A stretch of DNA of 22,988 bases from Beroe ovata (lineage: Eukaryota > Ctenophora > Nuda > Beroida > Beroidae), in contig CAMPET010000021.1 in assembly GCA_946803715.1 (NCBI GenBank), positions 111,398 through 134,385 on the forward strand, given 5' to 3'. Every line of letters begins with the position of its first letter. The first letter of the stretch is position 1. Below the pieces are notes generated by a model, which saw nothing but the letters and a program-made list of their open reading frames with translations, did no database searches and was not told the DNA's origin. Of this stretch, positions 15,915 through 18,900 are shown piece after piece. The translations under genes were made by a program, and so were the position numbers.

Positions 15915-18900
15915 CTGGGAATATGTAGTGGCCAGGGCGGTGAATTCGATCATTTCACATGTTAGGTACTTGTTTGAGGGAAAGTGTGAAGTAATGGGGT
16001 TCCTCAGCGATAACAAATCACCAAAACAATCGTATGTGTACTGTGCTGTTCGTTACATATTGAGATAGTAGTTCCTTTCTTGTCAAATTGTGACAAACCT
16101 GGCACGTTTTGTGTTGTGAATTCTGGACTAAAGTGTTTCAGATCAAGATTATCCGCCACGTTGGGGTCGTAAGGCGGTTTTATCTGCTTCTTCTCCAACA
16201 GAACCCAGTCGATAGAGGAGAAAAATTGATGCTCCTTCACATCCAACTGTGGGGGCAATCATTGGTTATCTTGCTGAATTTAGAGGGGGTCCAAATATTG
16301 GCTCAGATTTAGAGACTTAATTCAACGCGAGAGTCTGAATGCTCTGTAGTTTTCTAACCACGTCCCTTGAAGAAGATCCAAGACGGTTGTTCGTCTGTTT
16401 TTGGAGCAGCTGGGAATTGAAATGTGTTTAATTGGAAAAAGCATTTACTCAAGAGAAACACTGCTTTATAGCGCGCCTGGCATTAAAAATATGATAAGGG
16501 TTATTCTCACCCCCTCTAGAAGTTTTCTTGCGTGTTGAGACACATGACTCTTGAACCGAACTGGTTTGTACAAAATGTTCTCATACATTTCCCTTGTGTC
16601 TTTGCTGTAAAACGGTGGCTGGGGGAGGATGAAATGTGTTAGAGGAAGACACCATGAAATTAATTGCGTGGTTGTTGTTAGGCAAGTAACAATAGAAACT
16701 GGTTCCTGGACTGCACCATGGTAAATGGTACATGGGCTGCAGCATGGTGACTGGTACCTGTACCATGGTCAGGGGGTAACCATGGTAACTACTCACCAAT
16801 CCGAATATCATCTCGTAGAGCACAGCCCCAAGACACCACCAATCAACAGCGTTAGTGTAAGGTTGTTTCTGTATCACCTCAGGAGCCAGGTACTCTGGGG
16901 TACCACAGAACGTGTTCGTTGTCTTGTTCAGAGCTATTCCCTCCTTACAGAGACCAAAGTCGGTCAGGACTATGTGACCCTGAACGAGGTGTCATGGTTA
17001 CAACTTCTCAACTTGAGAATGGAAAATCGTGGTCTGATTCATGATCTTAATAGGCAATGCCACTATAGTAGGCATGGTACCACTAGGCAAGGTAACACGA
17101 TAGGTGACAGGTATGATTGTGAACTTTGCCTCGGAACACATGAGAAATTGTGCCCAACTCCCACCTCTTTGTCGAGTAGAATGTTCTCCGGCTTGAGATC
17201 CCTGTAGATGATATTGAGACTGTGGAGATATCCGATAGCACTGGCGATCTCTGCTGCGTAGAACCGCGCCCTACGCATATATACCGTGTTACATGCAATA
17301 ATATGTGCCTAGTCTTATAATAGCAACAACACTGAGGAAATAATATGAAATATATAGAGAGCCTTAGTTTGAAGCTAAGGACACAACTTCTCGAGTTGAG
17401 AGCCAGGGGTACTACTTCTCGAGTTGAGCTCAAGCGATACTACTTCTCGAGTTGGGATACTACGTCTCGAGTTGGAACAAGCGATACAAAAGTGAGAGGT
17501 GAAGTTACAGTAACAATGATACGTAGTGAGATTGATGAAACAGTGGGGAAGAGACTTGTTTGTAGCCAGTGATTCATCACACCTCGATTCGTGGAATGTT
17601 CTTTCCCGTTGCAAATGGAAGAACAGTTCACCACCGTTAACGTAGTCAAGAACAAAGAACAGCTTATCCTTTGTTTTGAAGGAGTATTTGAGTCCAACAA
17701 GGAATGGATGTTTCACATTCCTTATCAAAACGTTTCTCTCTGCCATAATGTGTTTCGCCTGTGTGGTATCAGTTGAAGGTATCGGTTAGCAGACACACAC
17801 TTGAATAGAAAAACAGAAGTTATGATTACATCTTTATATTTCAACACTAATAACATGAAACACCCAAGTAAATCGATCAAACATTCAACCCGACATATCC
17901 TGACGATCTACATGGAGAATACACCAGGAATTACAATATTGGCACGACCACTGCCTACCTCCTTCCGCTTCAAAATAGCCTGCTTATCCACTATCTTGAT
18001 GGCATAGTACTTGCCCTGGCCGCATAAATGCCGCGCAAGAATAACCTACAGAACAAGTGGGAAGGGTGAGAGAAAGTGAACGATTTTTACCTCGTTTTTG
18101 ACGATAATTTTCCGTTTCTCCAGAACTTTGAGTGCATAGTGTTTTCCAGTTTCTTTATGATTTGCTAGGATCACCTAGAACGTTAGGGTACACCGGATCA
18201 ACACACATATACACACATATAAATCATGAAATTGATCAAAGGAATAGGTGCATCAGCTATAATATTGGCAGTATATGGTTTGATGGGTCACAGTAAATAT
18301 AAAATTTACATGGTTCTCCTTATAAGTGCTCTAAGTGCAGCAGAAGTAGAAACATAATTCTGTATTGAATTTACCTTTCCAAAACTTCCCTTTCCAATTA
18401 TCCGGATCATTTCGAAATCTGTATACTTAACACTGAAACACATTTATACAAATACACATATGATTGGATCGCATTTGACAAAGCTTATTCTGGGGTACAC
18501 TACACTGCTTTTACCCAGCGTTGAGGAACTTACTTTTCCAAAACTGCCCGTTCCAATAACTTTAATAAACGAAAAATCAGTAGGTTTAGCTCTGAGTAGA
18601 TTTGTTTTGATGAGTTAATCATGATCATGGAAGTGAACAGTTATGAGTGAGAGACGAATGCTGAGCTTTGATATTGACATATTTTGTACGGTGCAAAAAT
18701 AGATTCATAATTTCATATTCACGTTTTGTTGTGCGATATTCCGAGGTTAATTCCATCATCGACATCATGGCTGTCTTCAGGCGAGTAATTGAAACTTTCT
18801 CCACCATCAGAATTACCAGAGTGCTTGTCAATACCAAAGAATCGCTGTACTTCGGGACTGCAAGGATGAGTCTTAGTTATCTCGTGGTGAACCGTGGTGT

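Follow-up and report, generated by a model that had tools for sequence, protein, structure and literature searches.

The SGK3 gene of the ctenophore Beroe ovata carries a double set of alternative exons for the N-lobe of its kinase domain and, judged from its sequence and that of its relatives, this double set is real and conserved in ctenophores. The explanation that we favour, and consider likely, is that of mutually exclusive exons arranged in two adjacent pairs. The first pair (G1 and G2) would supply beta1 and the glycine loop and the second (V1 and V2) beta2-beta3 and alphaB, with exclusion exerted through the reading frame at the G position and sterically at the V position, and with G1-V2 and G2-V1 as the resulting forms. 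The use of all four exons as alternatives is highly probable, and two or more distinct kinases are probably produced from the gene.

The gene lies complete on the minus strand of the analysed window, a stretch of 22,988 nt of B. ovata DNA, from exon E1 at 21515 to the stop codon at 15802. The protein encoded by its spliced model measures about 485 aa and comprises a PX domain, an AGC kinase domain and an AGC C-tail. The exons that flank the duplicated region are the following:

21456..21515, minus strand: exon E1, presumed start codon, opens the N-terminal part (model and relatives' alignment)
20882..20968, minus strand: exon E2, PX (model, Pfam and relatives' alignment)
20409..20484, minus strand: exon E3, PX (model, Pfam and relatives' alignment)
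18950..19025, minus strand: exon E4, PX (model, Pfam and relatives' alignment)
18723..18857, minus strand: exon E5, linker, ends in AC (model)
17583..17758, minus strand: exon C1 (model and relatives' alignment)
17165..17270, minus strand: exon C2, with YRDLKPEN (model and relatives' alignment)
16797..16979, minus strand: exon C3, with DFG and the activation loop (model and relatives' alignment)
16511..16618, minus strand: exon C4 (model and relatives' alignment)
16359..16409, minus strand: exon C5 (end from relatives' alignment)
16099..16246, minus strand: exon C6 (model and relatives' alignment)
15802..15914, minus strand: exon C7, hydrophobic motif FHGFTYV and stop (model and relatives' alignment)

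The reading frames of E1-E5 and C1-C7 are all open. The end of C5 was placed at 16362 in the manual model and is extended by the relatives to 16359, which adds one codon and leaves the frame unchanged. The PX domain was recognised by Pfam in both spliced forms submitted (PF00787, E 1e-14), and Pkinase_C scored barely over its cut-off (22.2 versus 20.9 bits). By the usual definitions of these elements, the spliced model possesses the activation-loop Thr in exon C3 and the hydrophobic motif in exon C7. The best solved match of the G1V1 form is Sgk1 (510 bits), followed by Akt2 (370), and among the best 120 of 7991 matches of the G2V1 form most of the descriptively named proteins are Sgk1, Sgk2 or Sgk3. 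The closest database protein is a hypothetical protein of Mnemiopsis leidyi (P0001), with 84% identity over 99% coverage. A protein search of the B. ovata genome in which 150 of 236 candidates were scored revealed no further SGK. The AGC kinases that follow among the matches look Akt-, PKC- and PKA-like, names given by similarity alone.

Other features were observed in the same window. On the plus strand, a multi-exon gene at 9567-13321 has by eye the appearance of a RhoGEF-type gene, and its frame 11877-12416 gives a weak PH-domain match below the Pfam cut-off. Between the two genes, at 14471-15067, lies a cluster of six inverted repeats, some of them GC-rich, whose arms measure 18-32 nt. At 22375-22986 on the minus strand an open frame of 203 aa, which resembles by eye the tail of a non-LTR retrotransposon protein, runs off the window edge; it has no Pfam match at E 0.01.

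An earlier note on this DNA had proposed a single SGK3 gene with two duplicated exon positions in the order G1-G2-V1-V2. Four intact N-lobe exons were indeed found, and the order holds in the direction of transcription, from 18591 to 17959 on the minus strand:

18534..18591, minus strand: exon G1, beta1 and glycine loop, 58 nt, phase 2 in and 0 out (sequence; P0003 orthologue)
18433..18533, minus strand: G1-G2 intron, 101 nt (model)
18375..18432, minus strand: exon G2, 58 nt, phase 2 in and 0 out (sequence; Mnemiopsis P0001 orthologue)
18175..18374, minus strand: G2-V1 intron, 200 nt (model)
18091..18174, minus strand: exon V1, beta2-beta3 with the catalytic Lys, into alphaB, 84 nt (sequence; Mnemiopsis P0001 orthologue)
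18046..18090, minus strand: V1-V2 gap, 45 nt (model)
17959..18045, minus strand: exon V2, 87 nt (sequence; P0003 orthologue)

The structural labels (glycine loop, beta2, beta3 with the catalytic lysine, start of alphaB) are those in general use for AGC kinases. G1 and G2 are of equal length, share the same phases and both contain the GxGSFGK motif, with 12 of 19 residues identical. Both V exons are in phase 0 and present YA(L/I)K with the catalytic lysine; 13 of their 29 residues are identical, and V2 has one residue more in the beta2-beta3 loop. The 28-residue form of V is found in all 131 other SGK rows, and V2 of the relative P0003 exceeds V1 by two residues. Since E5 ends in AC, G1 starts with A and G2 with T, a Thr codon is completed by either G exon. 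All four exons are bounded by an AG acceptor and a GT donor, which in comparison with 75 other kinase introns of the genome rank between the 16th and 31st percentile (acceptors) and between the 23rd and 88th (donors). At both positions the copies are neighbouring, similar in length, of the same phase and homologous, the hallmarks of mutually exclusive exons. When both strands of the 23 kb were scanned with profiles, the G copies were recovered at 67.6 and 60.0 (next place -5.5) and the V copies at 77.8 and 22.3 (next place -17.1), with no further copy of either. G1 and G2 had both entered the G profile, and V1, but not V2, the V profile, so that V2 is the only copy found independently.

The earlier note had itself raised an assembly artefact, in the form of collapsed paralogues, as a danger to this picture, and collapsed haplotypes would be another form of it. 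Near-identical exon repeats do exist in the assembly (at L040). However, the identities between G1 and G2 and between V1 and V2 are those of divergent copies, each copy has its own orthologue elsewhere, and a DNA search of the 77.8-Mb, 534-contig assembly found the region 17600-18620 as a single match. An artefact is hardly credible against this evidence.

Two other kinase loci of the genome, labelled by similarity, also contain repeated exon sequence. At L040, an NDR-like kinase, two C-lobe exons are repeated about 2.4 kb apart (3611-3730 and 6012-6131; 4609-4827 and 7013-7222) with 97-100% protein identity, as would follow from a recent tandem duplication or an uncollapsed haplotype. At L044, a PKA/PKG-like kinase, an extra open stretch (3851-4072) has 43% identity to the gene's own C-lobe exons and lacks their intron; it is a possible alternative C-lobe exon.

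The reading frame makes different demands at the two positions. Each of the four combinations of a single G with a single V is in frame and open to the natural stop. Joining G1 to G2 leads to a stop after 165 residues, and skipping both shifts the frame and also produces an early stop. Exclusion at the G position would thus be enforced through the reading frame and would need no splicing device besides loss of the wrong products, whose decay we infer. The G1-G2 intron, at 101 nt, is long enough for splicing, and joined G1-G2 products may therefore arise. In contrast, V1 joined to V2 leaves the frame open (514 aa), so that exclusion at the V position requires a splicing device. A transcript with G1 and no V would also stay open, with the catalytic lysine missing, and retention of the V1-V2 gap brings in a TAG in frame at its end.

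What keeps V1 and V2 from being joined is most likely the gap itself, whose 45 nt would be too short to be spliced. This is shorter than every aligned intron in a sample of 138 from 28 kinase loci, in which the minimum is 62 nt. The loci were chosen from matches of the genome protein search, and 8 of the 138 introns come from SGK3 itself. The same minimum was obtained for the 88 introns with well-matched flanks, and the 15 loci scoring at least 400 have 86 introns with a minimum of 69 nt, the other 13 loci having aligned at scores below 400. These lengths derive from spliced protein-DNA alignment rather than transcripts, with introns down to 20 nt permitted; a query carrying both V exons did make the aligner place the 45-nt intron. 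For human exclusive exons, the excerpts of two reports give a donor-to-branch-point distance below 50 nt as the steric criterion and a frame shift as another (PMC5740500; PMC7969005). Any branch point within the 45-nt gap would fall under this human limit, which is extended here to ctenophores by analogy.

Pairing between introns was also considered as a driver of exon choice, and was discarded. Ten pairs among the five introns flanking the four exons were compared with shuffles. For the E5-G1 intron with the V1-V2 gap, none of 100 shuffles, and then 18 of 2000, paired as well; two other pairs were equalled by 5 and 7 of 100, and the remaining seven by 16-72 of 100. Of 69 unrelated kinase introns, however, 31 paired with the V1-V2 gap just as strongly as the E5-G1 intron does.

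Two ctenophore relatives provide an age for the copies. The Mnemiopsis protein P0001 aligns through G2 (18 of 19 residues identical) and V1 (26 of 28). P0003, whose sole label is a EukProt id in the style that we take to be that of Pleurobrachia bachei, aligns through G1 (13 of 19) and V2 (20 of 30 aligned columns). Each N-lobe exon accordingly has an orthologue in one other ctenophore, and each relative shows one pair only; both are predicted gene models, one per species, and P0001 represents a cluster of 3 that would conceal isoforms more than 90% identical. P0003 is a flawed model, with read-through pieces and a PX stretch repeated almost identically. The PX repeat could be an assembly error or a recent exon duplication. 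These two were the sole recognisable ctenophore proteins among the best 120 of 492 matches of a search with the N-lobe only. With a four-row alignment as query, none of the best 120 of 1803 matches, most of them unnamed, bore a ctenophore name, and none was more than 74% identical to the first row.

In a tree of the joined N-lobe (33 rows, 47 columns), the window's G2V1 groups with Mnemiopsis (99/99) and its G1V2 with P0003 (98/95), both groups starred and standing apart. The sampling comprised 23 hand-picked SGKs, 4 of them without a motif match, and 11 AGC rows of the same genome, 2 having been left out. A lineage-specific duplication predicts relatives about equidistant from both copies, and neither relative is. 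This comparison indicates that the G and V duplications are older than the splits of B. ovata from Mnemiopsis and from the species of P0003.

It could be argued that each lineage employs a single pair, the second being a fossil or seldom included, as the one pair seen in each relative would suggest. The matching N-lobe pairs are identical between the window and Mnemiopsis at 44 of 47 positions and between the window and P0003 at 33 of 48, the latter being low beside exons C1-C4 of the same two proteins (180 of 191); the G1V2 pair is possibly under weaker constraint. However, both pairs are intact in B. ovata: their frames are open, their catalytic motifs present and their splice sites usable. 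The matching pairs have kept these identities, and a gene predictor may output one path only. Use of a single pair per lineage thus appears quite improbable.

A more serious alternative concerns the freedom of the choice. The earlier note had foreseen up to four kinases, and this stands in so far as all four combinations are open, although both ctenophore relatives have nested pairs (G1 with V2, G2 with V1), which leans towards coupled choice. Were the 2 x 2 choice free, each position would be selected independently of the other and four kinases made. Besides the frames and the intact splice sites, such freedom is favoured by the residues VILA at the start of both V1 and V2, with which either V should continue beta1-beta2 from either G. 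Moreover, when four SGKs from outside the ctenophores were aligned to the gene, one took G1 with V2, two G1 with V1 and one G2 with V1, so that likeness to SGKs does not track nested pairing. Against it, the nested pairing of both relatives hints at two coupled isoforms over four free ones; since these are single predicted models, they argue for the keeping of each exon and lend weak support to coupling of G with V. Taken together, we regard free choice as rather unlikely, and coupling of the G choice to the V choice as having slightly better than even chances.

Under the favoured explanation of two exclusive pairs, the forms most likely made would be an outer one, G1-V2, with a canonical SGK lobe, and an inner one, G2-V1, with a derived lobe. 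Nesting would have the outer form remove the entire inner block as one 488-nt intron. The PX domain, C-lobe and tail would be common to the products, and the differences would lie in the ATP site and on the PIF pocket's alphaB side, the position of the pocket there being presumed.

The note had also concluded from the exon order that the two positions were duplicated separately (or one pair rearranged). This does not follow, since a single G-V block, inserted as a copy into the intron between its own G and V, yields the same G1-[G2-V1]-V2 order as two tandem exon duplications. In 130 AGC/SGK pairs with a G identity of 57-70%, V identity has a mean of 0.39 (sd 0.11) and lies at or below 0.45 in 85%. 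On the same measure V1 and V2 share 13 of 28 residues (about 0.46), on the high side and within one sd, so that their divergence is compatible with a single event and with two.

The character of the two lobes was examined by comparison with other AGC kinases. When both lobes are extended by the first 19 residues of C1, G1V2 reaches 90.6 bits with Sgk1 and 50.6 with Akt2, and G2V1 reaches 78.0 and 59.8, respectively. From the proteins P0001-P0240, the 133 fitting the motif pattern were retained and the rest dropped, namely two ctenophore rows and 131 non-ctenophore SGK rows. Against the latter, G1 is the better match in 126 and G2 in 5, and V1 is better in 85 and V2 in 39, with 7 ties. By these similarities, G1 is the canonical G copy and neither V is singled out as ancestral; the outer G1V2 looks like an ordinary SGK lobe and the inner G2V1 less so. 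G2-V1 would be a derived lobe bearing some Akt/PKA-like residues. An origin of the inner cassette by exon shuffling, with a different, Akt- or PKA-like AGC kinase as donor, would also explain why G2V1 is relatively closer than G1V2 to Akt and PKA, and constraining it with Akt, at a cost of 10.4 log-likelihood units, is not rejected (p-AU 0.14). Nevertheless, Sgk1 remains the top solved match of G2V1 by 18 bits and the best tree groups it, weakly, with SGK rows (76/86). Furthermore, uniting both ctenophore pairs in a single clade costs just 1.6 units and is not rejected (p-AU 0.186), the 47 columns resolving little; the duplications may accordingly date from within the ctenophores or from before them. 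There is thus a slim chance of shuffling, and a derived SGK3 lobe is the preferred reading of G2-V1.

The boldest form of the explanation, to which we give somewhat less than an even chance, treats G1-[G2-V1]-V2 as a nested double cassette that predates both splits and has been retained ever since. One gene for an endosomal PI3K effector would then join two ATP-site/PIF-pocket lobes to one C-lobe, with frame and steric exclusion operating side by side and an inner lobe that has drifted towards Akt and maybe differs in nucleotide use or PDK1 control. Such an exchange of the ATP-binding lobe, with all else kept, would constitute a natural swap test of the roles of the glycine loop, beta3 and alphaB. 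If true, it would also place linked exon choice in a lineage that is possibly sister to all other animals.

Kinases usually diversify through gene duplication. In JNK kinases, exons 6a and 6b lie in the C-lobe of the kinase domain and are mutually exclusive. They are alternative exons within a protein kinase, as in SGK3, and in the excerpts of one report those of JNK1/JNK2 alter substrate binding (PMC8699841); unlike SGK3, they form one pair only. The nearest parallel within ctenophores is exon cluster-0 of Mnemiopsis leidyi Mhc2, described in the excerpted text as predicted mutually exclusive exons in the nucleotide-binding region (PMC3912159). There too a part of a nucleotide site is swapped with the rest in common, and one copy has a longer loop, but Mhc2 encodes a myosin motor and has a single pair, whereas SGK3 encodes a protein kinase and has two adjacent ones. 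In searches of the open-access literature by titles and abstract openings, two adjacent exon pairs across a kinase ATP site did not occur among the 2 to 20 entries listed per query, of up to 1996 papers. The interleaved exclusive clusters of CUX1 likewise consist of adjacent alternative exons that are selected in linked sets; going by the same kind of excerpt, they belong to a human transcription factor, have another layout and are supported by reads, whereas coupling in SGK3 is deduced (PMC5740500). Exons 4a and 4b of OGDH resemble the V pair in that exclusion results from a donor-to-branch-point distance that is too short, although the branch points are mapped in OGDH and the gap length alone is known in SGK3 (PMC7969005, in part). 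Set beside these accounts, in which mutually exclusive exons and alternative exons inside kinases are already known, SGK3 would add two adjacent pairs across the ATP site.
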